Translations under genes and position numbers: made by a program | Part shown: in pieces, positions 1 through 20,810 of the stretch | Layout: each line of letters opens with the position of its first letter | Numbering within the stretch: the first letter of the stretch is position 1 | Notes under the pieces: generated by a model | What the model was told of the DNA's origin: nothing | The model's input: only the letters and a program-made list of their open reading frames with translations | Databases searched by the model: none | NCBI GenBank assembly: GCA_025060325.1 | Contig: JANXBW010000004.1 | Location: 62,001-126,000 of the forward strand | Direction of reading: 5' to 3' | Source: Thermoguttaceae bacterium | GTDB lineage: Bacteria; Planctomycetota; Planctomycetia; Pirellulales; Thermoguttaceae | Length of the DNA stretch: 64,000 bases

Positions 1-1135
1 TGTAGTAATCGCGGCCCACCTCCAACTCGTGAGCAAGAAGAACCGTGGGCTGCAGGGAAGTTCTTTCTTCGACGGGAATAAATTCGAAGAAATGATGGCA
101 GTACTCCAAGATGCCGCTGCTTGAATGATCCTCATAAGGAACGGTCATATGACCTTCGCTAGCAGAAAGTCCGTGGTCGCGGATAGCCTGCTTGCCGTAG
201 TATTTTTCAACAAGCGGCAAGAAGATTCGTACTGGGCCCCCGGTCCAGACGGCAATCACCGACAGCTCTGGCCAAGCGCGCGAAAGATCAAGCCGACCAA
301 TTTGCTCAACAATTCTCTCCAATTGACGGGCACGCGCCGGGTCGCGTCGACGGAAATATGGGCGGAGTTTCTGCCGAATATTCCACGGGATGCTCAAATC
401 TGCGCGAAGTGAACCGTTGTAAATGTCGCGGATAAGATGCTCAGCCTCTCTCTGGGCCAACCGAGCAAACTCGACAAGCGTGCTCGGATTGGCAGTGCCA
501 ATTAACCCGATTCTCGGGCACGCTAGACCCAACCTCAAAGCGACGTAGTGTTTGGCATCGGCGGAGTGAATCTCCGTAACACATTGAGGAAGAGCGAACC
601 GAAGGCGCGCAAGAAACGGAGCCGTGTGGCCCACGAGCCCACTGATAGCGCCGCAGGGAGTTCCCCCGGGGGTATAAAATTGCCGCCAATCACTCGCAAG
701 CTTAAGAGTTTTCTTGTAAACTAAATCTTTGTGATCCCAGTAAAGCTTTACCCCCCACAGCTGCCAACCACGGCAATACTCTCGGAAAAAATGGTTGGTG
801 ATGGGGATGTACTTTGGCTGACCAGTGGTCCCGGATGTGAGCGCAAACATAAGTACTTTCGTCCCGGGACCGTACATAGCGTCCCACTTGCCAGCTTTTA
901 ACTTTTCGATCCAAGGCCGATAGTATTCGTAGTCGGTAATCGGCACCTGTTTGCGAAAATCACTCACGGTGCGAATGTGGGCAAATCCATGCGCTCGGCC
1001 AAATTCGCTACTTGCGTGCCGACGAACTTTGCGCAAAAGTACTTGTTCTTGATACCATCGCCCTCGACGAGCGTTGTTGACAAAAGCCCGAAAAGCTTGG
1101 TACTTCCAAAAAAGGTAGGCGTAGCGCTCCACCAT
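1..1135 (-). CDS. GH3-family acyl-acid amido synthetase (partial, 3' end outside window)
   Basis: I translated this reading frame by hand; it starts with ATG at 1135 and stays open to the window edge (about 378 residues). Residues 100-113 carry the adenylating-enzyme phosphate loop in its GH3 form (TSGTTGQPKYIPIT), and the N-terminal pattern (YQAFRAFVNNARR..., VPITDYEYYRPWIEKL) is that of the GH3 superfamily. GH3 enzymes adenylate a carboxylic acid and transfer the acyl group to an amino acid or another nucleophile; plant members conjugate auxin or jasmonate. The start lies 4 bases after the stop of the ketopantoate-reductase-like gene, with AAAGGAG eight bases ahead, so the two are co-transcribed. 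Inferred role: joining the fatty or polyketide acid made by this cluster to an amine or alcohol. The family call is strong; the substrate is unknown. Confidence 0.85.
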   Translation of the reverse strand, partial: MVERYAYLFWKYQAFRAFVNNARRGRWYQEQVLLRKVRRHASSEFGRAHGFAHIRTVSDFRKQVPITDYEYYRPWIEKLKAGKWDAMYGPGTKVLMFALTSGTTGQPKYIPITNHFFREYCRGWQLWGVKLYWDHKDLVYKKTLKLASDWRQFYTPGGTPCGAISGLVGHTAPFLARLRFALPQCVTEIHSADAKHYVALRLGLACPRIGLIGTANPSTLVEFARLAQREAEHLIRDIYNGSLRADLSIPWNIRQKLRPYFRRRDPARARQLERIVEQIGRLDLSRAWPELSVIAVWTGGPVRIFLPLVEKYYGKQAIRDHGLSASEGHMTVPYEDHSSSGILEYCHHFFEFIPVEERTSLQPTVLLAHELEVGRDYY

Positions 1136-1139
1136 GGCC

Positions 1140-2225
1140 TTAACTCCTTTCCACGCCGATGGTGGTTGGTTCGAATCGCCTAACCTGCAAACGTTCCTTG
1201 AAGCGGTGAATTACTTCATCCCGGGCTAAAAAGGTGCGGGGGTTTTTTTGTTCCAACTCGTGCGTTAACTCCAGGACAAGCTCGTTAAGCGGGCACGGGG
1301 TTTGGTGTTCGCTACCTAATCTAACGATTTCTCCGTTTATAAAGTCGACCTCGGTCTTCTTCCCGGAGACCAAGTCCTGATAGAGCGAAAACACGATGGG
1401 CCGGCGGTTGAAACCAAAACGCATTAGGCCCCCGAGCAGCTGCCCGACTATGGGGAAGCCAAGAAGATGACAGATGGTACGAAAATGGCGGATTCCTGGT
1501 CGGCCCGGGATGGCACGATGGTGAATGCCCGCCGCCCGATAAACACGCTCGATTTCCCTAAAAAGCGGAATCGCCACCCAGCGCCGCCACGGATGATGAA
1601 GTAGACATTCGGTAATAAAGTTGGAGGCCGACAGGCACGATACGTAGCCCACCGCGTTGATGCCTAATTTAGTGTAACGTAATCCCTGAATTTCCCGTGT
1701 GTATTTAATGGGCATCCCCGTTTTACTGAGGATGGCGGCTGCTTTCCTAGCAGCGGCTTCGGCATCCGGGAACATGGGGCCCACTGCGGTCAGACCACCT
1801 AACTGGAGAGAGATATGTCCCGGAGCGGTGACGGCCACGTTTATTGTTGTTACAGCGGCCACGAGCTGCGAAGGAGGCAACCACCGCTGGAAGATTTGAT
1901 CGCAAATCCCATTTTGAATAACCACAACCGTTGCCTGGCGGATAAACGGAGCGGCTTGGCTTAGTGCCTCCTCGGTTCCGTGTGATTTGACGCAGAAAAG
2001 CACAAACTCGCTACCTGCAAGTGCTGCTGGCTCAAGTTCCATGCGGGCCGGCACTTCGGCCCGATAACGCTGGCTAGCGACAGCAAGCCGCCCGGTGCGA
2101 CGGACAAACTCGGCGTGAGGCCCCCGTCCCACGAGCACGATGCGATCAGGGCCAAGCTCGCGGGCAAGTAATGCTCCGAAAAAGGATCCAATTGCCCCCG
2201 CGCCTAAGACACCGATCGTGGCCAC
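1140..2225 (-). CDS. Ketopantoate reductase (ApbA/PanE) family NADPH-dependent reductase
   Basis: The predicted protein has 361 residues. It opens with a Rossmann dinucleotide motif (GVLGAGAIGSFFG, residues 5-17). Lys186 and Asn190 in the segment YTKLGINAV and Glu292 in KKTEVDFINGEIVRLG match the catalytic Lys, Asn and Glu of ketopantoate reductases. The start chosen is GTG at 2225, just before the Rossmann strand; an upstream TTG at 2324 would add 33 residues of low-complexity sequence with no ribosome site. Family members reduce 2-oxo acids such as ketopantoate to 2-hydroxy acids. The gene lies between the polyketide synthase and the GH3 gene. It may be a housekeeping panE, but its place in this operon suggests a tailoring reductase acting on a keto intermediate. 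Confidence 0.85.
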   Translation of the reverse strand: MATIGVLGAGAIGSFFGALLARELGPDRIVLVGRGPHAEFVRRTGRLAVASQRYRAEVPARMELEPAALAGSEFVLFCVKSHGTEEALSQAAPFIRQATVVVIQNGICDQIFQRWLPPSQLVAAVTTINVAVTAPGHISLQLGGLTAVGPMFPDAEAAARKAAAILSKTGMPIKYTREIQGLRYTKLGINAVGYVSCLSASNFITECLLHHPWRRWVAIPLFREIERVYRAAGIHHRAIPGRPGIRHFRTICHLLGFPIVGQLLGGLMRFGFNRRPIVFSLYQDLVSGKKTEVDFINGEIVRLGSEHQTPCPLNELVLELTHELEQKNPRTFLARDEVIHRFKERLQVRRFEPTTIGVERS

Positions 2226-2462
2226 TGTCGATCTCTTGTTTGGGCCTTTTTGGGCATTTCTCTGTTTAAGCCCCGCGGACAGCGAAGCAACCTCTCCCCG
2301 AAACGGTAAATCGCCCGATGTCAATGGCGGGAAACCGGTGTGTTTTTCGGAACCCGCGGAATTTGGCGCCCCTCTTTCGGCAACCAGCTCCTGAGGATAA
2401 ACATTTGTGTTGACAGCGGCGGGCAGGGGTCCCGCCCAGAACCCCCAGGGTTACTTCGGCGT

Positions 2463-5400
2463 CTACGTTACCGAGCTTACTTTCTCCGCCACTTGCGAAG
2501 CTTTCTCAAGTTCGGCCAACAAGGCCGTGGCCAGGGCAGAAACATGCGGCGGTTCAAGCATTGAGAAATGATCGCCCGGCACTTCAATGATCCGGAACTT
2601 TTGCCCTTCGACAGTGCTCCAGCCTAAATCCGGCCGAAGTTCCTGCCCAGACATTTCCGAAAGCCGACCACGCTCTGCGGGCAAAAACATGGCGATTTCC
2701 AAGTCAATCGGCCGCAGGCGATAGTTCTTGATAAAAGTGACATTGTTTCGACCGACGTCGCACAATCGGCGAATAAATTGCGGCGAGGCCTCTGGCGGCA
2801 CGGCCCCTTGCCGTTTGGCCTCCTGAAGGGCGGCTTCGAAGACCTTTTCACGGGGCAGGTGTCTCAGGGCCTCATAAGACAACTGAATGGGAGCCGCAGA
2901 AAAATGACTTGTAAACTCTACAAGATCGCAGAGGAATTTGGCTTCATCACTTAGATCCACGCTGTCGTAAATCGAGGGCAAAGGCGTGTCTATGAAAGCA
3001 AGCAGGCCCACAGAGTTGCCGCTATCGCGAAGACGCCGGGCTAGCTCCAACGCGATGATCCCGCCGGCGGACCACCCTGCCAACAAATAGGGTCCGGATG
3101 GATTCACACGGCGGATCGCCGCTAAGTAATCCTGAAGCATTTCCTCGCCGTCGGAGTACGGATCCCGCCGTCCGTCAGCCCCTCGAGCCTCCAAAGCATA
3201 AATTGGCCAACGACCGTTTAGCTCGCGGGCAAGGTGCAGATAACACCGAGAGTCACCTGCCAAGGGATGTAGGCAAAAAAGCGGGGGGCGCTCCGGCCCA
3301 CGGCAAAGAGTGACAATCGGCGTCCACGACTCGGCTCTACCCGGCTCTGCGTGCTCCGGCGTAACTTGCTTTTCCGAAAGAACTGCCGCCGCTGCCACTG
3401 CCAACGAGCGGATGCTTGGATTCTCCACAAAGCTTGCCATGGGCAAGCTGAAGTTCAGTCGCGCCTCCAGGTTGTTTTTGAGCTCCATTGCCATGAGGGA
3501 GTCAAGTCCCAAGGCGCTTAATGGCAACTCCGGATCTACGTTGCCTGCCTCCAAGCCCATGATGCGGGCAAGCTCCCGGGCAAAGTATTGCTCAAGAAGC
3601 CGAACCCGTTCGGTCTCATCGTGCTCACGTAAGGTGGCCAGGAACTCCCGGTCAACTTCTTCCTTTGTCGCAGGATGGGGTTGGGCGGTTTTGGCGACCA
3701 CCTCTTGGAGAATTGGCAGTCGACGCCCACCCAACGCTTGCTGTAACCGGTCCCAGTCAAAATCGCCCACAATGGCTTGGGTAGCTTGAGAAGTTAGCAG
3801 CCTATCAAGGGCCTCAAGCGCGATAGCCGGGAAAAGCAGCCGGAGGCCGCGTGCCTCGAGGCTTCGAGCCATAGCATCTCCGGCGGCCATACCCCCATCC
3901 GCCCATGGACCCCAGTTGACAACAAGTGCCGGGATGCCCTTTTCAACCAACCAGTGGGCCAAGCCATCGAGGAACGCATTGCCCGCTGCATAGTTAGTCT
4001 GACCAGGCGAACCCAGAACACTCGCAACGGAAGAGAAAAAGATCCAAAAGTCAACGCGGTCACCTAGGCATTCCCAAAGGTTCCACGCGCCATCGACCTT
4101 CGGCGCAAGTGGCCGGGCCAGTGAATCCTCGTTTAGATCCCGTAGCCAGCAATCCTCAAGGACTCCTGCGGCATGAATCACTCCGGCAATCGGCGGGAAA
4201 TCTTTTGGCAAGGCCGCAAGGGCAGCCTCCAGCGACTGTCGATCGGTAACATCACCCTGCAATACTGCCACCCGGGTGCCACGGGCCTCCAGTTGATGAA
4301 TCTGCTGGCGGGCTTCCGGTGAGGGTGACCGCCGCGCAAGGAGAGCCAAAAAGGTTGCTCCCCGGTCAGCCAGGAACTGTGCCACCTGCAGTCCCAACGC
4401 CCCTAAACCGCCGGTGATGAGGTACGTGGCATCACCCCGGATACGCGGCCGGGCACACGTTGACTCCGAGATTGCCTCTGCCGCCAATTCTTGTTCTGGC
4501 CCACGTTTGCCCGAGGGCGTCGGGGTAGTGTCAACAGAGTGCTTGCTTTCGGGGGAAGTAAGGCCGATTTGTTGCCAGTCGGACGGGGAGGCCGTTTGGC
4601 CTTCCGACTCGCTTTTCATGCGGATGACGATTTTGCCGATATTCTTCCGCTGGGCCATAAAGCGGAAGGCATTTGGCAACTCTTCTGCCGGAAATTCGGT
4701 AATCGGCAGTGGTCGATAGTGGCCAGCTTGGAAATGCTCTAACACCTCGGCCAAAAGTTTACGCACAAGTTCCGGCCGTTGACGAAGAAGCCGGTCAAGA
4801 TCAATAGCGAAATAGGAGAGGTTATCTTTAAACGGAGCAAGACCGATCATCCGATTTTGGTAAATGTCGATCTTGCCAATCTCCAAGAACCGTCCATACG
4901 CCCGTAGCACTCCGAGGCTGGCCGTCATCATTTCGCCCGGCAGCGAATTGAGCACTACATCCACGCCTTCAAACCCGGTGAGCCGGCGGATTTCGTCGGC
5001 GAAGGCCGTGCTCCGCGAATCGAGCACATGCCGCACACCAAGCTCCCGGAGGAACTGGCGTTTACGCTCGCTACCGGCCGTGGCAAAGATTTCGGCGCCA
5101 ATGTGCTGGGCGATTTGAATGGCGGCCAAACCTACACCACCAGCTCCAGCATGAATTAGCACTCGTTCGCCAGGTTGAAGTCGCGCTAAATAGACAAGTG
5201 CATAGTAAGCAGTAAGGAAGGTTATAGGAATCGTCGCCGCTTCCACGTGGCTTAGATGTTTGGGCTTGTGAGCAAGGGCATATTCGGCGGAAAGCGCGTG
5301 AGAAGCAAAACTAAACGGTGCGACGCCGAAAACTTCGTCTCCCTCGGAGAAGCGTTCCACACCTTCGCCGACGGCGGTGACCACCCCGGAGCACTCGATA

Positions 5401-8400
5401 CCAAGGGGCACCACGGGGTCGCTAATTCCGGGATAAAGCCCCAGCGCTTTGAGCACGTCGCTGAAATTAAGCCCGGCGGCATGAACCTCGATTTCAACTT
5501 GTCCCGGACCAGGGGACTGCCGAGAGAAGGTCTCCCACCGCAAGCCGTCAAAGGTGCCCGTTTTTTGCAGCCGAATTCGGAACGGACCACGCCTCGGCGG
5601 AACAATTCCGTCACCTGTTATTTTTTTACCCCATTCCGGCGCAGGTACAATCCGCGGAACAAGTCCCTTATCCCCACGAATGACCAATTGAGGTTCCTCG
5701 CCAAAGGCGAGCCTTTGGAGGAAGATATCCGATGCCTCGCCAGGCACAACCGCCGGATCGATGTCGACAATGGTGCAGTTGAGGTTTGGATACTCAAGGG
5801 AGGCTGACCGCACAAATCCCCAAACTGCCGCATGAAGCAATTTCTGAACGTCTGCACCGGATTGCTGACAAGCTGTTTGACGGGTGGACACCCCTTGAGT
5901 AGTAGAAGATTGGAATGATCCCCGTGGACCGGCCGTGGCTTCAACCGGACACTCCGTAACGCCAGTATGGCCGTCCCCTTCTGCCGCTCCCGTTGCCACC
6001 CAGGGGACACCGGTAGTGACAATCGCAAGTTGGTCGATTCGTATCTCGCTTGAGGTAGCCGCTTGGAAGAGTGCCAAGATTTGTTCTGAGATCTTCTTTC
6101 GCGCCTTTGCGATGCTTGAAGGGGCGGGCGCCCCTAGAGTGTCAACGAGCCGCGGCGGTAAATAGAGGACGCGAACCTGTTTCCCTCCCGACGTCTCGGC
6201 CGCCTTCCGCAGAAGAGTGGTTAACTCGGATCGATTACCTGCCCAGACGTGCTTGCTTAGTGTTTCGGGGGACAAGCGCGCATCCGCGACGTCCTTACCC
6301 ATGCGGGTGGTTTGGGTCGCTTCGGCCTCCTCCCTGGTCTCGGCGATTGGGATGAAGAACCAATTGGCTTCCTGCCGACTTAGGCTATCGATCAACGCCG
6401 AGGCAAGGGGCGATCTTTCGGCTATGAGTACCCAAAAGCTATCCTGGAACGAAGGCAGCGCCCGTTCTTTTCTCGCCTGCGATCGATCCGGCTCCTCGAC
6501 CGGTTTCCACTCGAGCCGATAAATGAATTCGCTGGGATCGCGCTCTTTGGCGACCTTGTCAACCCGGCCCAAACGCTCGACTCGGAAGCCCTCGATTTGA
6601 ACCACCACCCGGCCCGACTGATCAAGCCAGTAAACGTCCGCTTCCACTACCGGCGGCGAGGGGTGAGTGTCGGTCGATCGGCGAATTGCGTAGGTATAAA
6701 CGGCCTGTGACGGGTCTCCAAGAATCCGCAGTGCTCGCACGAAGGTCGGCAAGTATGTATGGGGGGAATAAGAGCCGTCTGGCTCCGGTGGTACAACACC
6801 ACTGACAATGTGGAACGAAGCGTCCAACCAGGCAGGATGAAGAATATAGGCCGAATTGTCCCGGCGAACCTCTTCGGTCGGGGCAAGCACTGCTAACGCG
6901 TCTTGCTCACGTCGCCGGACGTGGTCGATTCCCTGAAAGGCCGGACCGTACTGCAGCTTCCGCGCAGCAATTAGTTGATAAAATTCTTCCCGCGACTTGC
7001 GATCAATGACACCTTGCTCAAGGCGAGCCAAGTCCACGGGGGGAGGTTCATTGAGTAAACTGGCCTTGGCTTCGGCAACAACTTTTCCGCTTGCGTGCAG
7101 TACCCATTCAAACTTCCCGTCGTTACCTGCCGGCGTGCCGCCGTAGACTTCGAAGAAGGCTTCGGCACCTGCGTCGGCTGAGACGGTCACCTGGAGTGTC
7201 CTTTTCGTCCCCTCCGGAAGACCCAAAGCCTGATGCAAAGCTAGGTTCTCAACGGCGTGACGGCCTGGGCCAAATAATTCGCGGGCCACTGCCAAGCCAA
7301 TCTCGAGGAATCCGGCCGCCGGAAACACCACCGTACCTTCAACTTTGTGATCACCGAGATAGGCGGGCTGACGGGAGCTAATCTGAACCTCATAGATGCG
7401 CTGGCTTAACGGGGTAGGAACCCGGCTCCCCAAGAGTGGATGTACCGTCGGGCCGAGGGACCGCCCAGCAGATAGCCGCGCCGGGCTTTTGGCTTCAAAC
7501 CAATATCGTCCACGGTCGAAGGGGTAGGAGGGCGCCTCCAGTCGCCGTCGCGGCCAATCTCGGTCGAATGCTCGCCAGTCGATTTGGGCACCGGCGATAT
7601 AAAGCTCAGCAATGGTGCCGAGAAGAACTTCCCAATCATCATGTCCACGCCGGAGTGATGGACCCGCCACCCCTCGCCAGTTGGCTACGCAGCGGCGTGC
7701 CATGCCGAGAAGAACAGGAGCCGGCCCCACCTCAAGCCAGATGTCAGGTTTTTCTTCAGCCAGTGTTGCTATTTGTCGGGCAAATAGAACGGGCCGACGA
7801 ATGTGCTCTCGCCAATATCCGGCATCCGGAATGGTGTCCAAAATCTTCCCGGTAACGTTGGACACAAGCGGTATATTTGGCGGGTGGTACTGAATCTCTC
7901 GGGCGACCGCTTCAAAGCGATCGAGGATGGGTTCCATCAACGGGCTATGAAACGCATGCGAAACCGCAAGGGGATGAACACCAATCCCCTTTCCTTGGAA
8001 TTGGCGGACCAATTCTTCGACAACACTGGCCCGACCGGAGAGGACTGTGTTTTCCGGCCCGTTGACCGCCGCGATTGCCACCTCTGCTTCAAGTCCCCGA
8101 GTCGCTTCGCGGACATTTGCTTCGTTTGTAAAAAGGACTGCCATCATGCCATCGCGCGGTAGCTCCGCCATCAGGCGCGCCCGATGAGCGATGAGCTTCA
8201 GCCCATCCTCAAGCGGAAAGACCCCAGCTACGCAAGCAGCTACATATTCGCCCACGCTATGGCCTAGCACGTAGTCCGGTTCGATGCCCCACGACATCCA
8301 CAGGCGGGCCAAGGCGTATTCGAGCGCAAAAAGCGCTGGTTGCGTGTATAAAGTCTCATCAATCAGCGAGGGATCGGTCTTACCTCCGTCACCAAATTTT

Positions 8401-10235
8401 TGAGGATAAATAACACTTAAAAGCCGGCGGGGTAGAAATTCACGGAGGATTTCATCACACTTGTCAAGCGCTTCTCTGAAGGTGGGGCTTGTCTCATAAA
8501 GCTGAAGCCCCATGTCTACATATTGGGAACCTTGACCAGTGAACAGGAAAACGATCTTGGGCCGGCCAAGTAACCGAACCTGCGCGGAACGAATGGAGGG
8601 ATTCCTCCGCCCCGCCAAAAAATCGTCTAGCCTCTGAGCTAGTTGATCGACACTGCTTGCGACGATCGCCAGGCGATGGTTAAAGTGGGACCGGCCCGCC
8701 GTCACCGTATGGCAAAGGTCTGCGAGAGACGAGTCCTGTTGCGACTTTAGGTAGTCCTTGAAGCGTCCTGCTAGCTTTTGTAAACTGGCACTACTTTTGG
8801 CCGAAAGTGTAAACACATGTGTGGGGCGATCGGGAGTCGCTTGCGCCCGGCTAGGGGCGACGTAATCTTGCATGACGATGTGGACATTTGTCCCCCCAAA
8901 ACCGTAGGAGCTAACTCCTGCGACCCGGCTGCCTGGCGGAGCCGACCACCGTGAAGGCTCGCGGGGAATCACCAGCCGCGTGCCATCCAATCGAATGTTA
9001 GGATTCAGCTCCCGCAGATGGAGTTGTCCCGGAATCATCCCATGGCGCATCATGAGCGCCACTTTGATCACGCCGGCAATTCCCGAGGCAGTTTCCGTGT
9101 GACCGATATTTGCTTTAACCGAAGTAAGGTAACAAGGTGGGTCCGAATCGTTCTGCCGGCGAAAGATCGGCGAAAGCCCTTGGATTTCGATGGGATCGCC
9201 AAGCGGCGTGCCTGTGCCGTGGGCTTCGATATAAGTGACATCCCGGGGGCTGATCCCCGCATTGGCTAAAGCGGCCCGAATGACCTCCTGCTGCGAGCGG
9301 GCGTTCGGAGCGGTGATCCCTGAGGTCCGTCCGTCTTGATTCGTGGCACTTCCTTTAAGAACTGCCCAGATGTTGTCGCCGTCTCGCAATGCGTCGCTCA
9401 GCCGTTTGAGGACGATAATCCCACAACCCTCGCCGCGGACATAACCGTCGGCCGCCGCGTCAAAAGGCCGACACTTCCCCGTGGGCGAAAGCATGCGGGC
9501 TTTGGAAAAGGCGATCATCACCTCCGGAGAGAGAATAAGGTTCACTCCGCCGGCAAGCGCTAGATGGCACTCTCGCAGCCGCAGGCTTTGGATAGCCAAG
9601 TGGACCGCAAGCAGCGCCGAAGAGCACGCCGTGTCGACGATAAAGCTGGGGCCACGTAGATCCAGGACATAAGAAATGCGGTTAGCCGCAATGCTTAGTG
9701 CATTACCCGTTCCGACATGGGCGTCAATGTAGTCGAAGTGATTCTCGAAGTGGGTAGGGATTTTCGAATAGTCGGTCCCGCCAATTCCGACAAAAACGCC
9801 GGTTAAGCTCCCTGCTAAACGATCGGCGGCAATTCCGGCATTTTCTAGTGCCTCCCAAGCAACTTCCAAAAGAACGCGTTGCTGCGGATCCATTCGGGAG
9901 GCTTCCCGCGGGGCGATACCAAAGAAGAGCGGATCGAATTGGTCCACGCCGTCAATAAACCCGCCCCATCGGGTGTACATTTTCCCCGGTGCCTCGGGGT
10001 CGGGGTCGTAAAAAGCCTCTACATCCCACCGCTCAGGCGGAATCTCCCCCGTTGCGTCAACGCCATCGATGATGATCCGCCAATAATCGTCTAACGTGGG
10101 AGCTTTGGGAAATCGACAAGCCATCCCCACAATGGCAATTGGCTCCGCCACGTCGGCCACTTTGGCAAGCCGCTCTTCCAGCAAACGGCGCTGGGCGGGC
10201 GTCAGCCGGGCCAGTCTTTCCGAAATATCCCGCAT
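2463..10235 (-). CDS. Type I modular polyketide synthase, KS-AT-DH-ER-KR-ACP-TE
   Basis: A complete single-module, fully reducing synthase of 2590 residues. Ketosynthase about 31-455 has Cys204 (DTACSS), His339 (HGTGT) and His379 (NIGHTE). Acyltransferase about 560-870 has Ser660 (GHSVGEY) and the HAFH motif at 760-763, which predicts malonyl-CoA. Dehydratase about 930-1225 has His963-x3-Gly-x4-Pro and Asp1138. After a structural linker, enoyl reductase about 1555-1872 has the NADPH loop HAGAGGVG. Ketoreductase about 1935-2165 has TGGLGALG, Ser2068 and Tyr2082, with an LED in place of the B-type LDD signature. ACP Ser2246 lies in LGLDSL. Thioesterase about 2305-2575 has Ser2389 (GWSAGG), Asp2416 and His2556. 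All key residues are present. The start ATG follows GAGGGA by 11 bases and the FAAL stop by 25. Product: an acyl chain lengthened by a saturated two-carbon unit, once or iteratively; chain length cannot be read from sequence. Confidence 0.97.
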   Translation of the reverse strand: MRDISERLARLTPAQRRLLEERLAKVADVAEPIAIVGMACRFPKAPTLDDYWRIIIDGVDATGEIPPERWDVEAFYDPDPEAPGKMYTRWGGFIDGVDQFDPLFFGIAPREASRMDPQQRVLLEVAWEALENAGIAADRLAGSLTGVFVGIGGTDYSKIPTHFENHFDYIDAHVGTGNALSIAANRISYVLDLRGPSFIVDTACSSALLAVHLAIQSLRLRECHLALAGGVNLILSPEVMIAFSKARMLSPTGKCRPFDAAADGYVRGEGCGIIVLKRLSDALRDGDNIWAVLKGSATNQDGRTSGITAPNARSQQEVIRAALANAGISPRDVTYIEAHGTGTPLGDPIEIQGLSPIFRRQNDSDPPCYLTSVKANIGHTETASGIAGVIKVALMMRHGMIPGQLHLRELNPNIRLDGTRLVIPREPSRWSAPPGSRVAGVSSYGFGGTNVHIVMQDYVAPSRAQATPDRPTHVFTLSAKSSASLQKLAGRFKDYLKSQQDSSLADLCHTVTAGRSHFNHRLAIVASSVDQLAQRLDDFLAGRRNPSIRSAQVRLLGRPKIVFLFTGQGSQYVDMGLQLYETSPTFREALDKCDEILREFLPRRLLSVIYPQKFGDGGKTDPSLIDETLYTQPALFALEYALARLWMSWGIEPDYVLGHSVGEYVAACVAGVFPLEDGLKLIAHRARLMAELPRDGMMAVLFTNEANVREATRGLEAEVAIAAVNGPENTVLSGRASVVEELVRQFQGKGIGVHPLAVSHAFHSPLMEPILDRFEAVAREIQYHPPNIPLVSNVTGKILDTIPDAGYWREHIRRPVLFARQIATLAEEKPDIWLEVGPAPVLLGMARRCVANWRGVAGPSLRRGHDDWEVLLGTIAELYIAGAQIDWRAFDRDWPRRRLEAPSYPFDRGRYWFEAKSPARLSAGRSLGPTVHPLLGSRVPTPLSQRIYEVQISSRQPAYLGDHKVEGTVVFPAAGFLEIGLAVARELFGPGRHAVENLALHQALGLPEGTKRTLQVTVSADAGAEAFFEVYGGTPAGNDGKFEWVLHASGKVVAEAKASLLNEPPPVDLARLEQGVIDRKSREEFYQLIAARKLQYGPAFQGIDHVRRREQDALAVLAPTEEVRRDNSAYILHPAWLDASFHIVSGVVPPEPDGSYSPHTYLPTFVRALRILGDPSQAVYTYAIRRSTDTHPSPPVVEADVYWLDQSGRVVVQIEGFRVERLGRVDKVAKERDPSEFIYRLEWKPVEEPDRSQARKERALPSFQDSFWVLIAERSPLASALIDSLSRQEANWFFIPIAETREEAEATQTTRMGKDVADARLSPETLSKHVWAGNRSELTTLLRKAAETSGGKQVRVLYLPPRLVDTLGAPAPSSIAKARKKISEQILALFQAATSSEIRIDQLAIVTTGVPWVATGAAEGDGHTGVTECPVEATAGPRGSFQSSTTQGVSTRQTACQQSGADVQKLLHAAVWGFVRSASLEYPNLNCTIVDIDPAVVPGEASDIFLQRLAFGEEPQLVIRGDKGLVPRIVPAPEWGKKITGDGIVPPRRGPFRIRLQKTGTFDGLRWETFSRQSPGPGQVEIEVHAAGLNFSDVLKALGLYPGISDPVVPLGIECSGVVTAVGEGVERFSEGDEVFGVAPFSFASHALSAEYALAHKPKHLSHVEAATIPITFLTAYYALVYLARLQPGERVLIHAGAGGVGLAAIQIAQHIGAEIFATAGSERKRQFLRELGVRHVLDSRSTAFADEIRRLTGFEGVDVVLNSLPGEMMTASLGVLRAYGRFLEIGKIDIYQNRMIGLAPFKDNLSYFAIDLDRLLRQRPELVRKLLAEVLEHFQAGHYRPLPITEFPAEELPNAFRFMAQRKNIGKIVIRMKSESEGQTASPSDWQQIGLTSPESKHSVDTTPTPSGKRGPEQELAAEAISESTCARPRIRGDATYLITGGLGALGLQVAQFLADRGATFLALLARRSPSPEARQQIHQLEARGTRVAVLQGDVTDRQSLEAALAALPKDFPPIAGVIHAAGVLEDCWLRDLNEDSLARPLAPKVDGAWNLWECLGDRVDFWIFFSSVASVLGSPGQTNYAAGNAFLDGLAHWLVEKGIPALVVNWGPWADGGMAAGDAMARSLEARGLRLLFPAIALEALDRLLTSQATQAIVGDFDWDRLQQALGGRRLPILQEVVAKTAQPHPATKEEVDREFLATLREHDETERVRLLEQYFARELARIMGLEAGNVDPELPLSALGLDSLMAMELKNNLEARLNFSLPMASFVENPSIRSLAVAAAAVLSEKQVTPEHAEPGRAESWTPIVTLCRGPERPPLFCLHPLAGDSRCYLHLARELNGRWPIYALEARGADGRRDPYSDGEEMLQDYLAAIRRVNPSGPYLLAGWSAGGIIALELARRLRDSGNSVGLLAFIDTPLPSIYDSVDLSDEAKFLCDLVEFTSHFSAAPIQLSYEALRHLPREKVFEAALQEAKRQGAVPPEASPQFIRRLCDVGRNNVTFIKNYRLRPIDLEIAMFLPAERGRLSEMSGQELRPDLGWSTVEGQKFRIIEVPGDHFSMLEPPHVSALATALLAELEKASQVAEKVSSVT

Positions 10236-10260
10236 GAGAGATCCGTTCCCTCATCCATCC

Positions 10261-12666
10261 TTAAGCCGTGCTATCTTGCTGGCGGCCGTTTTCCAAAGCG
10301 GCGGAGGTCTCTCCCTCCGCTAGACTTTCCACGTCTCGGAGGAGTTTCTCAAGTTCGTCGTTAAACAGATCACTTTCGGCCCCGCCGAGCTCCTCTTGGT
10401 CTGTTCTTCCCCCGATTAGATTGGCCAAATATTCAGCGAGGCTGGCTGGAGTCGGATAATTCCAGGCGATTGTCGGCGTCAGCCGGACGTTAAGCATTTG
10501 TTCAAGACGCTCGGTCAGTTCAACAGCGGTGAGCGAGTCTAGGCCATATTCAGCAAATGGTCGGCTCCGATCGATCTCTGCTGCGTCCACACCGCCCTTC
10601 TCCACAAGCCATCCTAAGAGCGTTTCTTCAATTTGCCGGGCCAAGCGCCGCACTTCAGGGTCACTCATTACCCGCTTGTGAGGTAAAGGGAGCTTCAGTT
10701 TGCCGTTCCCGTCGCCGTCGCCTTCGCGGAGTGGCTCTTCCCGTCTTGACGCCAGGGCCGTTTCTCCGCCAGAGGTCCGGGAAACCGCATCCTCCACAAC
10801 CCAGGGCAATTCCGGGTCGTGACCGTCACTTCGTCCGCCGGGGGTAGCAAACTCAGAACGGGAAGCAACCCGACCACGCACCGAACCAGTAACCGAAAGC
10901 TCTTTCCGCCGCCATTCGAAAACGACTTTTAGTTGACCGGTGAGGAACTTTTCCCGGCAAAGAAGCCTTTGGATCTTGCCACTAGTGGTACGCGGAAGGC
11001 TGGCCGGCCGGATCAATACCACCGCATAAACATCCAGGTCATGTTCCTCCGCCACCGACCGGCGGATCTGCCGAACAACCTCCCGTAAATCAACGTCGCG
11101 GTAAGTTCGATCGACCTCCTGGACGACAACCAACCGCTCTTCCCCGTCGACGTCGATCGAAAATGCAGCACCCCCACCAGAAACCAAAACGGGACTAGCA
11201 TGCTGCACGGTAAGCTCGATGTCTTGGGGGTAATAATTTCGCCCGCGAATGATAATCACCTCTTTCAACCGGCCGGTCACATACAACTCTCCCCCGTGGA
11301 GAAAGCCGAGGTCACCTGTTCGCAAGAATGGCCCTTCACCCGTTGGCTGTAGACGGGCCTGAAAGACTCGGCGGTTGGTCTCGGCTTTGTTCCAGTAGCC
11401 GGCCGCCACATTTGGACCTTTTATCCAGATTTCGCCGATTGTCCCTGGCGGAACCTCTCGGCAAGTGTGAGGATCAACGATGCGGATTTCTTCCCGAAGC
11501 AGGGTGTGCCCACAGCCGACAAGAGGCTGCGCATGTTCGGTCTCACTCTCCCCAACAGGCACGGCAACGCCCTCGGCGAGCTTTTCGCGATTAACGTGCA
11601 GGATGCGCGGCTCGCGGGGACCGATCGAGCCGGTCGCAAGAAGCGTCGCTTCCGCTAGTCCATAGCAGGGGTAAAACGCGGAAGGCCGGAAGCCAAACGG
11701 CCCAAACGTCTCGGCAAATCGGGCTAGGGTTTCCGCCCTGATTGGCTCGGCACCGCAAAAAGCCAGTTGCCAGCAGCTCAGATCCAGCCCCTCTTTCTCG
11801 GCCGGGGAAATCTTCCGACAGCAAAGCTCATAACCGAAATTCGGTCCCCCGCTGACCAAGGCCCGGTACCGAGAGATGGCTCGAAGCCACCGAACCGGCC
11901 GCTGGAGAAAGCTGGTGGGGGCCATCAAAACACTGTGCCCTCCAGTGTACAAGGGGCTCAAAATGCCGCCGATAAGGCCCATATCGTGATAGGCGGGGAG
12001 CCAAAAAACGCCAATTCCTGGTTGAGCAGGGGGATCCACCCACGGGATGGCGAATCCCTCGCGAATCATTTCCAGGTTAAATAGCAGATTGCGATGGGTG
12101 ACAACTACCCCTTTCGGCTGGCTTGTGGACCCAGATGTGTATTGCAAGAAAAGGGGACTTTCCGCGGTGATGTCAGGCCTTTTCCAGAGGGTGGCTTCGC
12201 CGGGATCGACAGCATCAACGCAAATCCACGTAAGTGAGGCCAGCTCCGGGGCCACCCGGGGTAGATCTAAGGTGGAAAGGGTTTGCGAACTGGTTAGGGC
12301 AACTCGCGCTCCACAATCTGCGGCAATCGCCGTCAACCGAGGCATGGGGCGCTTAGGCTTCGGATACGTAGCGGGAACCCCAAGGGCCCCCGCGGCCACA
12401 CACCCGAAAAACCCGACCACGAAGTCCAACCCGGGCGGGAATACCAAAAGAACTCGATCAAAAGGGGAGACCAATGCCTGGAGTCGGGCCGCTGTAGCTT
12501 TGGCGCGCCGTGCCAGCTCCGCAAACGTTAGCGACTGGCCCGTTCCATCCTCCAGTTCAAATGTGAACACGGGCAAGTCGGAGCGAACATCGGCCTGCCA
12601 CTCGAGGATGTCGAGAAGTGTGGAGAACTGCGGTCGTTGCCGATCGTTACCTTTGCTATCCGACAT
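10261..12666 (-). CDS. Fatty acyl-AMP ligase fused to an acyl carrier protein (FAAL-ACP)
   Basis: A protein of 801 residues. Residues about 15-590 form an AMP-forming ligase of the FAAL type: the phosphate loop YTSGSTSQPKG at 176-186, the AYHDMG and GGPNFGYELC segments, RTGDLGF at 449-455 and the GRLKEVIIIRGRNYYPQDIE-type hinge. FAALs activate free fatty acids as acyl-adenylates and pass them to a carrier protein instead of CoA. Residues about 665-750 are the carrier protein, with its attachment Ser711 in YGLDSLTAVEL. An acidic tail helix (FNDELEKLLRDVESL) follows, a possible docking element. ATG at 12666, five bases after AGAGG, is preferred to an upstream TTG at 12732 with no ribosome site. 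This is the first gene of the operon; it would load the starter acid on to the downstream synthase. Confidence 0.95.
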   Translation of the reverse strand: MSDSKGNDRQRPQFSTLLDILEWQADVRSDLPVFTFELEDGTGQSLTFAELARRAKATAARLQALVSPFDRVLLVFPPGLDFVVGFFGCVAAGALGVPATYPKPKRPMPRLTAIAADCGARVALTSSQTLSTLDLPRVAPELASLTWICVDAVDPGEATLWKRPDITAESPLFLQYTSGSTSQPKGVVVTHRNLLFNLEMIREGFAIPWVDPPAQPGIGVFWLPAYHDMGLIGGILSPLYTGGHSVLMAPTSFLQRPVRWLRAISRYRALVSGGPNFGYELCCRKISPAEKEGLDLSCWQLAFCGAEPIRAETLARFAETFGPFGFRPSAFYPCYGLAEATLLATGSIGPREPRILHVNREKLAEGVAVPVGESETEHAQPLVGCGHTLLREEIRIVDPHTCREVPPGTIGEIWIKGPNVAAGYWNKAETNRRVFQARLQPTGEGPFLRTGDLGFLHGGELYVTGRLKEVIIIRGRNYYPQDIELTVQHASPVLVSGGGAAFSIDVDGEERLVVVQEVDRTYRDVDLREVVRQIRRSVAEEHDLDVYAVVLIRPASLPRTTSGKIQRLLCREKFLTGQLKVVFEWRRKELSVTGSVRGRVASRSEFATPGGRSDGHDPELPWVVEDAVSRTSGGETALASRREEPLREGDGDGNGKLKLPLPHKRVMSDPEVRRLARQIEETLLGWLVEKGGVDAAEIDRSRPFAEYGLDSLTAVELTERLEQMLNVRLTPTIAWNYPTPASLAEYLANLIGGRTDQEELGGAESDLFNDELEKLLRDVESLAEGETSAALENGRQQDSTA

Positions 12667-13896
12667 GTTGCCTCTATCCTCGTTCGCCCTTTCGAAGGAG
12701 TTCCGGGCACACGGTGAGGGCGACTTTTTCAAAATTCCTGGTTCGCTGCTTGTCCGGAACGAGTTGGTCGACTTTCATTCCGGACGACGTCCATGGGTTC
12801 GCCTGGTGCCGGCACTCCGGAAAACGCGCAGCATCAGTGTAGGAACCTCGGCCCAACAACATAAAGATTAATTCGGGTCTGGTAAGCTCTGAATTCCTTT
12901 CCCCTTTCGCGGCCACCTAGCTGGTTACGCCATTTTCTCTAAACTGCCAGGGGAAAAACGTAAACGAAAAATCAGAACAATGTCGGGACCCGTCCAATCG
13001 GGCAAGTCGGCTCAGCCAGCAATCCTTAGCTCCGAGTCCAAGTCTGATACCGGGGTCCTCCGGAATTCGGATTTCGGCACCCTGAACCTGCCAAAATTAA
13101 GTGATCGCTCTTTCTCTTCGCCTAAGGGTTAATCAACCGCAGGTTTTGGGGTCCGTCGGGGTTATTCTTTGCGGACTTGCAAATCTAGGCATTATAAGGT
13201 GAGTAGGGGATCCAGTTAGGTCAAATGGACGAACTTAAATTTTCTGGGGAATCAGGTCATTCTACGGTTGCCGTGAGAAACTCGCAAAGCTAACTTTGCG
13301 CCCCAACTTAGAAAAGATCACTCCTTAGACTAGGAATGGAGGTTACGCGCCGAAATCTGCAGGCGACAAAACGAGAAGATCGGGAGGATAGCATGTTCGC
13401 CTCGGGATTTAACGCCCGAGCGCTAGCTTTTTTGTTCGGGTCTTCCGCTGACCGTTAGCCGGGATTTGAAGACGGACGGTGCCGGGGGTCGGGAATCGAG
13501 AGGTTTCCCTGGGACGTGGAATTGGCACGTAGTTTCGACGTACGGCCCCCAAGAATGAGTGGTAGATGCTAGGGGCGAATCCCTCCGAGATCCGACCACG
13601 AGGGAATCTCGGCACCGCTCTGGGCAGTGTCGCTGGTTCAAACCGCCCTATACCCCTTTTGTCGCCACAAAGCGGGGCTATTGGTGCCTCGTGGCTGGCC
13701 GCAACGCAGGCGGTAGGAAGCCCTTTCAGACCAAAGCTTTAGCGACGCTTCGCTTCCCCCCAGGGGTAGGGTAAACCCGACGAAGGCATTTGGGTTGTCT
13801 ACTTTAAAATTAGGGGCTTGGCACTAGCGCGCGTTGGCCTCTCCAGGGTTTCCCGGTCAGTAAACCTCCTAAACCCGAAAAAGGACCACACCAGCC
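12667..13896. other. Long divergent intergenic region of the biosynthetic locus
   Basis: About 1.2 kb separates the FAAL-PKS operon (minus) from the thioesterase gene (plus). No reading frame here looks like a protein. It must hold the promoters of both arms, but I could not pick convincing -35/-10 pairs. It contains a perfect hairpin at 13283-13300 and a smaller inverted repeat at 13401-13420. Confidence 0.6.
13283..13300. repeat. Perfect inverted repeat in the divergent control region
   Basis: CGCAAAG at 13283-13289 and CTTTGCG at 13294-13300 pair over 7 bases around a CTAA loop. There is no U-tract. It could be an operator half-site pair or an RNA stem; function unknown. Confidence 0.4.
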
Positions 13897-14661
13897 GTGC
13901 CTTGTAAGCCGGAAGACTGGCTCCCATGGCTCCGTCAGCCTTTAACCCCGGATAAGCCCCGGTTGCTATGCTTTCCGTACGCCGGGGGTGGGAGCTGGAT
14001 TTTCGGGCGCTGGCCCAGCTTTTTGGATGGGGAGATCCAGGTGCTACCGGTCGTTCCCCCAGGCCGTGAGCACCGGCTCAAGGAGCCGCCTCTTGAGTGT
14101 GTCCAGGAAATGGCCCGCCAGATGATGCAAAGTGTCAAAGGTATTTTGGGCGGCGCGCCGTACGCTTTATTCGGGCATAGTTTAGGGGCCCTGGTGGCGT
14201 TCGAACTTTGTCGCGAAATTGAGCGATCGGATTGCCCTCTGCCCCAGCTTTTGGTGGTTAGTGGGTGTCGGGCGCCTCACCTTCCGCGCACTTGGGTACC
14301 CATTCACTCACTGCCGCCGCGTGAGTTCGAAAAAGCTGTGGAGGATCGCTTTGGACCTTTGCCCCTCCCGTTGCGGCGCGACAAGCGAACGCTGGAGGTC
14401 TATCTCCGAATTTTGCGAGCCGACATGAAAGCCGTGGAGACGTACGGTTTTGAGCGCTCCACACCGCTTCGAACACCCGTGTTGGTATGCGGAGGGCGGG
14501 AGGATCCCTTTGTCCCTGTGGGTGACCTTTTCCCCTGGGTGGATCTGTGCGGGAGCCGGTTTGTTATCGAGCTATTTCCCGGGGGACACTTTTTCTTGCG
14601 GGAAAACCCCCGCGACTTCTTAAAAGCCTTAAAGCAGCATTTGCTAAAAATGGGGTCTTGA
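13897..14661 (+). CDS. Type II thioesterase (alpha/beta hydrolase, GrsT-like)
   Basis: A 254-residue stand-alone thioesterase. The N-terminal KPRLLCFPYAGGGSWIF is the family hallmark, the nucleophile Ser95 sits in GHSLGALVAFEL, and a C-terminal FPGGHFFLRE supplies the catalytic His. Type II thioesterases accompany polyketide and peptide synthases; they remove stalled or wrongly primed acyl groups from carrier proteins. The start is GTG at 13897, with AAAAGGA about 12 bases upstream; no in-frame ATG fits the start of the family fold better. It is transcribed away from the FAAL-PKS operon and is followed 126 bases later by the phosphopantetheinyl transferase, so the two plus-strand genes likely form a support unit of the cluster. 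Confidence 0.92.
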   Translation: MPCKPEDWLPWLRQPLTPDKPRLLCFPYAGGGSWIFGRWPSFLDGEIQVLPVVPPGREHRLKEPPLECVQEMARQMMQSVKGILGGAPYALFGHSLGALVAFELCREIERSDCPLPQLLVVSGCRAPHLPRTWVPIHSLPPREFEKAVEDRFGPLPLPLRRDKRTLEVYLRILRADMKAVETYGFERSTPLRTPVLVCGGREDPFVPVGDLFPWVDLCGSRFVIELFPGGHFFLRENPRDFLKALKQHLLKMGS

Positions 14662-14787
14662 ATACCGCGATACCACCAGTGGGGAAAGCGCCCGGCAGGA
14701 AAGGCGAGGCTATTTTCCCAACGGATCTTGCTGCGGATACGGTTGCCTTTCAAGATTCCCCTCCGGATCCCAAAGGTCTTCACCCTA

Positions 14788-15588
14788 ATGAGAACATCGC
14801 AATATAGATTGGCCCCCGAAGAGCTCCACATATGGCTATGGGAGACAGAAAACCCTGTCTTGGCAGAGAAGGCCTGGGGGGTCATTTCCGGTGAAGAATC
14901 AGAGCGTGCCCGGCGGTTCAGGCACCAAGCGCATCGTATACGATTCTTATGTACACGGGTTGGGTTGCGAAGCATTCTCTCCGAATATCTACGCTGTGCA
15001 CCGGCTGAGATCCGTTTTGCTGCTAGGCGCGGGGGCAAGCCAGTCTTGGAACCAGAGACTCATTCGCATTCGCTTCGGTTCAACCTGGCACATTCTGCCG
15101 GTCTGGCGGCGTTAGCTCTCCGCGTTGACGCAGAGGTCGGAATAGACCTGGAAGCAATCCGCCCGATGCCTAATGCCTTGGCCTTGGCTGAACGATTTTT
15201 CAGCCCGGCTGAGGCCGCCGCGCTTCGGTCAAGGCCAAATGGAGAGCAGGAGGAGCTTTTCTTTCGTTTGTGGACTTGCAAGGAAGCTGTGCTCAAGGGC
15301 CTTGGTTTTGGCCTGACGTACCCTCTTGACCAGGTCGAAATCCCTTGGCTTATCGGTGACCCGGTGCCGCCAGTAAATGGTCCGGTCGTCGAGAGTACAT
15401 TGTGCGTTGACATAAAGGGCATTCATGATTTTAAACTAACACCCAATGCCGAAAGTGGAGGTGTCGAACCGCAGGATATACCGAAAAAATGGTGGGTTTG
15501 GGAATTCAAGCCGCACGTTGATTTTTTTGCCGCGGTTGCCTCTTCAAGCTCTTGGAATTCTGTCTCAATCCGCCATTTGGGGGTCTAG
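14788..15588 (+). CDS. 4'-phosphopantetheinyl transferase, Sfp type
   Basis: A 266-residue protein with the signature blocks of Sfp-type transferases: FNLAHS at about 98-103, GIDLEAI with the metal ligands Asp120 and Glu122, and WTCKEAVLKG at 162-171 with Glu and Lys. It transfers phosphopantetheine from CoA to the active serine of carrier proteins, here presumably the ACP of the FAAL and that of the polyketide synthase. The ATG at 14788 is preferred; an in-frame TTG at 14728 would add 20 residues in front of the conserved region. The C-terminal part after about residue 185 is variable, as is usual. It belongs with the preceding thioesterase gene and completes the set needed for a working cluster. 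Confidence 0.92.
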   Translation: MRTSQYRLAPEELHIWLWETENPVLAEKAWGVISGEESERARRFRHQAHRIRFLCTRVGLRSILSEYLRCAPAEIRFAARRGGKPVLEPETHSHSLRFNLAHSAGLAALALRVDAEVGIDLEAIRPMPNALALAERFFSPAEAAALRSRPNGEQEELFFRLWTCKEAVLKGLGFGLTYPLDQVEIPWLIGDPVPPVNGPVVESTLCVDIKGIHDFKLTPNAESGGVEPQDIPKKWWVWEFKPHVDFFAAVASSSSWNSVSIRHLGV

Positions 15589-18700: not shown

Positions 18701-18924
18701 CGAAACGACCCTAGCCAGAAATCACCAGGTCGAACTTCGGCCCGCTTGTCAGCGCCGATAGACAACTTGGCATCCGGCCCTGTTACTGGGAGTAGCGGAA
18801 ATATGACCAAAGCTCCGCCGATAGCGAGCCAAAATGGTCTTTTGCGGCGGAAAGCCGATTGGTCAACACGAGAGGCAGAGTCAAGGACGAGACCAGCTAA
18901 GGAGCGAAAACGCATTCCCCCCAT
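15748..18924 (-). CDS. TPR-repeat protein with C-terminal CHAT caspase-like protease domain
   Basis: A protein of 1058 residues. A basic N-terminus is followed by one membrane-spanning segment (about 28-48, PFWLAIGGALVIFPLLPV). Residues about 95-600 are helical with TPR-like repeats (for example EGRLKEALAEYESAVDL, AHTYNSLGLLFLETGRPEEAD). The C-terminal 250 residues form a CHAT domain with the expected dyad: His904 in LVTHG and Cys954 in LLSACLTYSG, then GFLAAGARQTVATLWSV. CHAT proteins are caspase/separase-like peptidases often controlled by their repeat region. The start ATG follows a perfect AGGAGG by seven bases. The neighbours (a phosphopantetheinyl transferase on the other strand and a secreted protein) do not suggest a substrate. 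The signal anchor implies membrane attachment. Confidence 0.93.
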   Translation of the reverse strand: MGGMRFRSLAGLVLDSASRVDQSAFRRKRPFWLAIGGALVIFPLLPVTGPDAKLSIGADKRAEVRPGDFWLGSFRPIAFQQTILQRAIQNRRTGEKLEFEGRLKEALAEYESAVDLSEKVPPDPQNRELARLLKLTTRIKIARLQRRLGSFTEAEATYKSLIPEAQQVVERFRRRIPFQLTSMERDLTRTYCDALVDATEFYRELNQPGRARTYWGLLDAITAETSPATAWEQVTPLFWAPRIAALYLDGELSRIEADLDRALKACQEAKALVKKSISLLRKTTGNEGLIAELQAIESTVTVGLALCHYDLAQVNPQTAKEDYARAKSYYEEALASFGTNKSQLSMALQASCRRNLGICYHEWAKLSAPPDRESLAKAESELRQAEKICLQMTAPAPQDLAHTYNSLGLLFLETGRPEEADRMASMALEQLRSLAEISANYELRRNALLLRARATWELAGGDPMRRKEAITFATQALECVRQQLRQVIGDPFRRGRARQTLWGRIEGTLVSWYEALLASGEEVQLADVLSVFELSRAQSLLEEMAMVRATREGSNRAGALAGLLEELQNAQPKLAEVSFKLRSVQGKNAEALAQELRAWEARYQDLLRRMWTETGGPRFAGELLEEMNSQRVDDILRWIEDRKLLVLYYLVDRDRSFLLIIPPHEARTNWKLLELQMTQDHADILNAALTAWAAQTKPNQPAISVAFTKLSAGALPRHVFQILLNPLSGLLAVLSDAQATVPQRVLQSLGEILIPSPAQERLLDTRAYETLLVIADGPLARFPFQALIIPYGVEDKFVVEVANPIVYAPSLTVGYRLDTSTRPEVRAALCLGKAAFTEYQPIFGNRLPPLPDAVYECAWVSRALEEKGLKVIRVVDESREQRQVTKAALQQLVAGAQLVHLVTHGLGGEEHGEWGGCLLFSASEGDDPYTGILTLPEIYRLPLESTELVLLSACLTYSGVELEGEGIWAVARGFLAAGARQTVATLWSVESQATRELMGHLASELNLPGQTGNSTHSPTGSSLGAHVALRKAQLHLMKRSEWQRPYFWAPFVLVGAPR

Positions 18925-20505: not shown

Positions 20506-20810
20506 ATCTATCTCCTTAGCGTTGATATTTACCTGCTGGAACCGAAAACTTTTCGGGGAAAATCGTGTAACGGTGGGGGCGAACAACGATTTCAGGGGTA
20601 CGGGCATGGGGCGAAGAAGTCCCGCTTAGTTGTTGCTTCGGTGAGGTTTGGAGCAAATGATTAAAATTTCCCTCTCTTAGGTGGGGACACACCCAAACCA
20701 CGGAGGACCGCCGCGATAACCAGGGCTACCCCATAGGACGCTAAAACGAACCGAACGTTTGGGTAGTTTCCTCGGGATTCGCACTGCGCGGCGGGGTTGG
20801 AGGTCTTAAG
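20506..20810. other. Divergent intergenic region
   Basis: About 300 bases between the secreted-protein gene (minus) and the methyltransferase gene (plus). It must carry both promoters; no clear elements were recognised beyond the ribosome sites described with those genes. Confidence 0.5.

Follow-up and report, generated by a model that had tools for sequence, protein, structure and literature searches.

Most of what is known of the GH3 enzyme family comes from the conjugation of plant hormones. A bacterial member, OlsH of Singulisphaera acidiphila, was published in 2025 as the enzyme of N-acyl ornithine synthesis; that report (PMC12493201) describes GH3 enzymes as users of the free acid, with OlsH coupling a free fatty acid and an amino acid at the expense of ATP, and calls for work on other homologues. 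Lipid synthesis by a bacterial GH3 is therefore not new in itself, and the opinion of a first-pass annotation of the DNA treated here, that GH3 enzymes in such a setting are rarely discussed, is overtaken by that work. The DNA in question (the "window") is a stretch of 64,000 nucleotides from a Thermoguttaceae bacterium of the order Pirellulales, covering positions 62001-126000 of contig C44 in a 4.78-Mb draft genome (G000:C44:62001-126000). It carries a GH3 gene in line with those of a fatty acyl-AMP ligase (FAAL) and a type I polyketide synthase (PKS). Judging from these sequences, some planctomycetes seem to make a long fatty chain by means of the PKS, to which the GH3 enzyme would then attach an amino acid, with partner enzymes that are almost always found together. 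A GH3-centred pathway to N-acyl amino-acid lipids, distinct from that of OlsH and its partner OlsI, is on balance probable. The GH3 subfamily defined here is the second one in planctomycetes; it recurs with a set of partners and, in the majority of genomes, with a PKS for chain building, so that the acyl donor, the acceptor and the later steps become testable together.

The GH3 gene is cut by the left edge of the window, where positions 1-1135 of the minus strand encode the N-terminal 378 of its 582 residues; the full gene lies at G000:C44:61387-63135 (L003:9387-11135). The complete protein matches all three Pfam domains of the family (GH3 209.7, GH3_M 77.2, and GH3_C 60.4 bits, against 23.6 bits each), and the part within the window scores 211 bits against 23.6. 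The nucleotide motifs S101-G-T-T..K108, A325-S-E327, and R389..D394 are invariant in an alignment of 23 sequences, drawn from 31 hits. The 16 best structure matches of the predicted model (pLDDT 86.6) are all plant GH3 entries, with Z scores of 26.5-39.5 (at least 38.3 for 12 of them), followed by the next family, PaaK-like and other ligases, at 22.3 or less. Sequence and predicted model together confirm the fold and nucleotide motifs of the acyl acid amido synthetases. By its sequence and setting, the enzyme would act on the PKS product and would form an amide.

The distribution of this GH3 was followed in 396 Pirellulales genomes drawn evenly from the order; we take the same sample to have served for the GH3, the PKS, an ATP-grasp ligase, and an S33 hydrolase, since handles and counts agree, although the listings leave out most genomes with no match. 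Any GH3 match was found in 36 genomes and the strong window-type subfamily in 21, that of the window included. The latter set is delimited by a gap in score: its lowest best score is 494 bits (G369, in which the gene is split over two contigs), and the next genome reaches 240 bits. Among 60 genomes searched as relatives, seven carry GH3, again counting the window genome. The GH3 set is patchily distributed in Pirellulales, and the S33 hydrolase ortholog (E <= 1e-45) follows it handle for handle in 21 of the 396 genomes (13 of 144 genera), even though it lies away from GH3 in nine of them, on another contig in six and at least 368 kb distant in G041, G042, and G358. In the window genus, hydrolase and ATP-grasp genes are adjacent on another contig (G000:C4:77551-79752; G001:C12; G002:C171). 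The ATP-grasp ortholog (E <= 1e-60) occurs in 18 genomes, all within the 21, and the PKS (E <= 1e-150) in 114, including 20 of the 21. The corresponding hypergeometric values, which ignore relatedness, are 2.5e-35 for the hydrolase, 2.2e-28 for the ATP-grasp ligase, and 6.8e-11 for the PKS. The first two queries were picked as GH3 neighbours in G128, making the linked genomes partly circular, and their cut-offs were set after earlier searches had revealed, in a few genomes, a gap to paralogues.

Clustering of the open reading frames (ORFs) of GH3 neighbourhoods, together with family scans, yielded the recurrent partners: an enolase-superfamily enzyme of the MLE subgroup, a ketopantoate-reductase-family oxidoreductase (KPR), a short-chain dehydrogenase/reductase (SDR), the S33 hydrolase, the ATP-grasp ligase, an MMPL protein, a protein of the membrane desaturase/hydroxylase family, a VTT protein, and a GT2-FkbM protein. 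The four that best define the set, namely SDR, MLE, hydrolase, and ATP-grasp, fell outside the view of the first-pass annotation. In the stretches examined in the 21 genomes, which are selected stretches and not whole genomes, MLE was found in 21, PKS in 19 (a PKS fragment of G350 fell below threshold), ATP-grasp in 18, SDR in 17, KPR in 14, FAAL in eight, desaturase and GT-FkbM in five each, and MMPL, type II thioesterase (TEII), and 4'-phosphopantetheinyl transferase (PPTase) in four each. At 11 PKS loci from genomes devoid of this GH3 (L161-L171), GH3, KPR, SDR, MLE, hydrolase, and ATP-grasp were all unmatched at E <= 1e-8; a FAAL match of 397-675 bits stands beside the PKS in four of them, and a short match only in two more. 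No partner was found at six loci with weak GH3 matches (L019, L020, L079-L082). In seven genomes devoid of this GH3, MLE is represented by distant paralogues (at most 78 bits) in six and by none in one. Matching gene profiles over scattered loci can also reveal pathway members that are missed by PKS-centred mining.

OlsH and OlsI are described as inseparable in planctomycetes (PMC12493201), and here too a planctomycete GH3 is coupled to an alpha/beta-hydrolase, the two occurring together in 21 of 21 genomes. The locus might accordingly be a variant of that system, whose GH3 would make N-acyl ornithine or a similar lyso-lipid and whose S33 hydrolase would O-acylate it, like OlsI, into an acyloxyacyl membrane lipid; we regard this as unlikely. 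The sole NCBIfam match of the window GH3 is the OlsH model NF052613, at 102.2 bits against a cut-off of 620, and in the GH3 tree the 23 core sequences form a clade of their own (support 0.967) that excludes eight true OlsH sequences. Membership in OlsH was rejected on both score and tree placement. Several inner nodes of the first tree have low support, and matched pieces of 380 residues or less were left out of it (OlsH-model loci L113-L132, L020, L031, L032); in a second tree, which left out the duplicate entries L054-L057, a wider group including L025, L027, and L029 has a support of 0.288, and an apparent "OlsH clade" of 45 is an artefact of rooting. Profile comparison (hhalign probability 96.5) links the hydrolase family to the OlsI candidates, which are ORFs beside OlsH named by position and sequence rather than by a family model, but with 23-38% identity over 48-247 residues and a best E of 7e-7 this likeness reads as one of superfamily level, and the solved structures nearest to the hydrolase of G128 are monoglyceride lipases. 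Furthermore, the published pathway needs no MLE, ATP-grasp, KPR, or SDR, whereas the locus described here adds these four and usually a PKS.

The distribution of OlsH itself was also followed. It exceeds the cut-off in 30 of 69 genomes of the class, two of the hits doing so only with their neighbours in frame, while the 16 Pirellulales in this set are all without a match at E <= 1e-60; the OlsI candidates come from this search, and in a phylum-wide one, none of 246 genomes exceeded the cut-off. At eight OlsH-model loci (L153-L160), the only matches were two to SDR, both distant, and one to AMP-binding. Compared with the operon shared by OlsH, OlsI, and OlsG, the gene run of the window and its scanned neighbours up to position 20607 harbor no methyltransferase and no alpha/beta-hydrolase beyond the thioesterase (TE) domain of the PKS and the TEII; the S33 hydrolase of this genome is on contig C4, not in the GH3 run.

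Two further GH3 contexts were observed. In L027 and L029, both metagenome-assembled genomes (MAGs) of Planctomycetota, a GH3 ~43-44% identical to that of the window stands beside two ketosynthase-like ORFs, in L029 also with an acyl carrier protein (ACP) and a FabA-like protein, and it looks as if GH3 adjoins a type II chain builder there. In three Pirellulales genomes, GH3 matches of ~210-240 bits (L079, L082, and L019, in G128:C16, G170:C1, and G018:C954) lie in a similar gene order, with neighbours that, as read from ORF starts, comprise acetyltransferase-like ORFs and two putative B12-binding radical SAM proteins.

Upstream of GH3, the minus-strand run of the window begins with FAAL-ACP, a FAAL with a C-terminal carrier domain (10261-12732; 823 residues from a TTG, although translation may in fact begin at an ATG 22 codons further on), followed by the PKS (2463-10235; 2590 residues, with the Pfam domain order KS-AT-DH-ER-KR-ACP-TE) and the KPR (1140-2324; 394 residues). 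Beyond GH3 and left of the window, it continues on the same strand with the SDR (G000:C44:60145-61185) and the MLE (G000:C44:58748-59947). The gaps from FAAL to MLE are of 25, 138, 4, 201, and 197 bases. Two genes diverge from the run on the plus strand: the TEII (13897-14661; 254 residues, Thioesterase PF00975 at 133 bits), also present in G001, G002, and weakly in G231, and the Sfp/HetI-type PPTase (14728-15588; ACPS at 63 bits), which scores 172 bits with the HetI model, below its cut-off of 370. Coordinates and Pfam matches well beyond chance (ketoacyl-synt, for instance, at 336 against 20.8 bits) bear out the layout given by the first-pass annotation, with FAAL-ACP, PKS, KPR, and GH3 on the minus strand and TEII and Sfp divergent.

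The FAAL-ACP combines an AMP-binding domain (222 bits) and a C-terminal PP-binding domain (56 bits). Its nearest solved structures (7r7e/f/g, 562-564 bits) are those of the FAAL of Synechococcus olefin synthase (OLS), and FAALs, not CoA ligases, make up the 15 top-scoring solved sequences (564-259 bits); several of them we take to be FAALs under the depositor names polyketide synthase, acyl-CoA synthase, fatty-acid-CoA ligase, or saframycin synthetase B. The window PKS possesses KS, AT, DH, ER, KR, and ACP domains with their catalytic residues, as expected of a fully reducing type I PKS. The KS cysteine and two histidines, the DH histidine, the KR serine and tyrosine, and the ACP serine are intact, as the first-pass annotation had reported, and are accompanied by the motifs GHSVGE and HAFH in the AT, GGVGLAAIQ in the ER, and GWSAGG with the histidine of GDHF in the TE. 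The AT motifs are presumably malonyl-specific. In 17 aligned PKSs, that of the window included, the TE serine motif is found throughout, altered to GWSTAG in L066; further departures are the lack of the DH HxxxG and an AT HAMH in L077, no match to the pattern of the second KS histidine in L073, and an end before the TE histidine in L099. The earlier proposal of a saturated, C2-extended chain fits these malonyl-type AT motifs and the complete reductive loop, and the expected product would be a saturated, C2-extended free acid.

Two known systems resemble this chain builder. The cyanobacterial OLS has, in Synechococcus, the FAAL nearest to that of the window among solved structures, and carries a sulfotransferase domain before the TE; in contrast, none of the 22 Pfam families matched by the window PKS is a sulfotransferase. 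In the mycobacterial FadD-Pks-MmpL lipid loci, a reducing type I PKS likewise receives its fatty acid from a FAAL, and an MMPL protein is also present in four of the 21 genomes with this GH3 (no MMPL match was found in the examined stretches of the window genome). In mycobacteria, a Pap acyltransferase follows, whereas here GH3 would take its place after the released acid.

The partner enzymes give indications on what may follow chain release. In the MLE, K183, K185, D215, E241, D266, and K293 are invariant in 20 aligned sequences (20 hits), a pattern of KxK, metal ligands D-E-D, and second lysine that we take to be the racemase/epimerase motif, with roles in alpha-proton exchange. Its best profile matches are 2p88 (181 bits), presumably the N-succinyl amino acid racemase of Bacillus cereus, 3jva (169), 3q45 (160), and 1jpm (154), of which 3jva and 1jpm are dipeptide epimerases. 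Residues and resemblance thus fit a GH3 product as the putative MLE substrate. MLE was also considered as MenC of menaquinone synthesis, which is not favoured: MenC models reach at most 69 bits, below muconate cycloisomerase (103), racemase (75), and epimerase (70), all these NCBIfam scores being far below their cut-offs, and the tracking of GH3 genomes by the MLE gene further counts against it. The KPR (ApbA 82 and ApbA_C 66 bits) scores 146.9 bits with TIGR00745, over the cut-off of 141.35. Its Asn138, Lys219, Asn223, Ser313, and Glu325, invariant in 12 aligned sequences (17 hits), presumably correspond to the catalytic residues of E. coli PanE; its gene context suggests a substrate other than ketopantoate. 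The best NCBIfam matches of the SDR are OleD-type reductases and HpnA, all below their cut-offs. The ATP-grasp ligase (12 aligned of 13 hits) has a model with a pLDDT of 91 and a generic fold match, the best in Foldseek being RizA (4wd3), which is outside the 50 VIA-align rows. The S33 hydrolase might act as an acyltransferase or provide free fatty acid. Duplicates, truncated genes, and some over-long or contig-edge ORFs were left out of the alignments.

A protein of the FA_desaturase family stands beside KPR and ATP-grasp in four genomes (L064:9699-10874, L063:9624-10793, L016:1968-3110, L150:11147-12340) and near hydrolase-MLE-SDR in a fifth (L148:5365-6507). Amino-acid hydroxylation is as open for it as chain desaturation, because the best NCBIfam match of the L064 protein is the guanitoxin L-arginine hydroxylase GntB (102 bits against a cut-off of 380).

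The gene identities, the catalytic residues, the conserved linkage, and the shared phylogenetic profile are observed; from them we infer the reactions of the pathway, their order, the amino acid, and the product. In the best reading, its core consists of GH3, hydrolase, and MLE; ATP-grasp joins them in most cases, SDR and KPR in many. The Sfp enzyme would prime the carrier domains, a free fatty acid would be activated and loaded by FAAL-ACP, and the PKS would add at least one malonyl unit with full reduction, before its TE releases a free long-chain acid, the TEII acting as an editor. The GH3 would then adenylate this acid and couple it to an amino acid through the amino group of the latter. 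The resulting N-acyl amino acid, or a dipeptide, would be epimerised at its alpha-carbon by the MLE, and the ATP-grasp ligase would add a further amine or amino acid. Keto groups would be reduced by KPR and SDR, and the S33 hydrolase would transfer or remove an acyl group. Depending on the lineage, an MMPL exporter, a membrane desaturase or hydroxylase, or a glycosyltransferase-FkbM protein may complete the set. A more speculative extension, which we put forward as doubtful, is that of an undescribed lipid class: a PKS-elongated saturated chain with a GH3-joined amino acid, inverted at the alpha-carbon by the MLE as a racemase and extended by ATP-grasp, would give a D-configured N-acyl (di)peptide envelope lipid, exported by MMPL in some lineages, and the genes, scattered over the chromosome as they are, would be gained or lost together as a unit of function.

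Stieleriacines and other N-acyl tyrosines of Pirellulaceae are N-acyl amino acids as well, made by organisms that we take to belong to the same order as that of the window. A term search of the main text of a 2025 paper on their biosynthesis (PMC12479983) returned no mention of GH3, FAAL, or polyketide, and one of the main texts of PMC12078418 and PMC10896814 no mention of GH3. Term searches of open-licence PMC papers returned no report of a GH3-PKS cluster, a weak negative given this scope, and the locus may have been mentioned as an unnamed PKS region.

The link between PKS and GH3 put forward by the first-pass annotation stands in most genomes. No more than 4 kb separate PKS and GH3 in 14 genomes of the 21, from three families (G000, G001, G002, G086, G137, G206, G231, G238, G324, G325, G350, G369, G381, G396), and the two are side by side in L024, a Rubripirellula MAG outside the sample. 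Two GH3 copies were found in L024, G350, and G381. Linkage is undecided in G161 and G212, at contig ends. Several observations weigh against the proposed pathway. The first-pass annotation had named a GH3 unlinked to the PKS in relatives as a sign against its proposal, and this was found in part: both genes are present but unlinked in G042, G128, G148, and G358, and G041 keeps GH3, MLE, SDR, hydrolase, and ATP-grasp without a window-type PKS, its GH3, hydrolase-MLE-SDR, and ATP-grasp lying at three separate places. The PKS therefore need not feed GH3. No ATP-grasp match reached E <= 1e-60 in G137, G161, and G369, and a separate search gave no match in G137 and 44 bits only in G369; KPR is under threshold in seven and SDR in four of the 21 genomes, within the examined stretches. 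In the 10-kb flanks of L025, a basal relative of the GH3 subfamily (44% identity), no partner and no ketosynthase were found. The MLE could have another substrate, and the VIA-align matches of the ATP-grasp model (2pn1 at Z 26.2, PurK 25.9, PylC 24.3, amino-acid ligase 3vot 23.8) span several substrate classes.

With the PKS within 4 kb in 14 genomes, elsewhere in four, absent in one, and undecided in two, it is therefore best read as an interchangeable chain supplier, not as part of the pathway core. Two separate neighbouring pathways, in which the TE of the FAAL-PKS frees a long-chain acid and the GH3 set uses ordinary fatty acids, would account for the unlinked genomes, for G041, and for the 11 control loci with PKS and no GH3 set, but they are distinctly improbable in view of the proximity of both genes across three families, the KPR/GH3 gap of 4 bases in the window, and the occurrence of the PKS in 20 of 21 GH3 genomes against 114 of 396 overall. 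Least likely of all, and hardly to be expected, is a GH3 that uses an alcohol, a polyamine, or another amine as acceptor, or merely supplies an acyl adenylate to KPR or SDR: the amino-acid acceptor of the subfamily is putative, its motif 2 differs from that of OlsH, and KPR is its close neighbour, but the companion MLE is nearest to 2p88, again on the presumption that this is an N-succinyl amino acid racemase, and to dipeptide epimerases. Plant GH3 enzymes and OlsH make amides with amino acids (PMC12493201), which likewise argues against such a GH3.

Aside from the proposed pathway, FAAL-PKS pairs of the window type were observed in L162, L163, L165, and L171, devoid of any of the GH3 partner genes, and the FAAL-PKS chain builder seems to serve other pathways too in Pirellulales. 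A promoter and terminator scan returned nothing clearly over chance; the single promoter-like site of the divergent intergenic region between FAAL-ACP and TEII (12733-13896), where shuffled sequence gives 0.5 on average, is of no use as evidence on regulation. Next to the PPTase gene, the window encodes a CHAT-TPR protein of 1058 residues (15748-18924, minus strand) and a 391-residue protein without Pfam or PHROG match (19432-20607, minus strand), both of which keep this place in G001. Left of the window lie genes for a 1335-residue MFS-acyltransferase-AMP-binding (Aas-like) protein and for ApbE (L002:9012-13019 and L003:3016-4164), a pair that follows the run downstream in both G000 and G001, but stands beside the hydrolase/ATP-grasp locus in G002 (L145:2704-8245). 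Farther to the right, positions 43327-46260 of the minus strand of the window encode a protein of 977 residues in which a BNR (sialidase-like) domain precedes a sulfatase domain.

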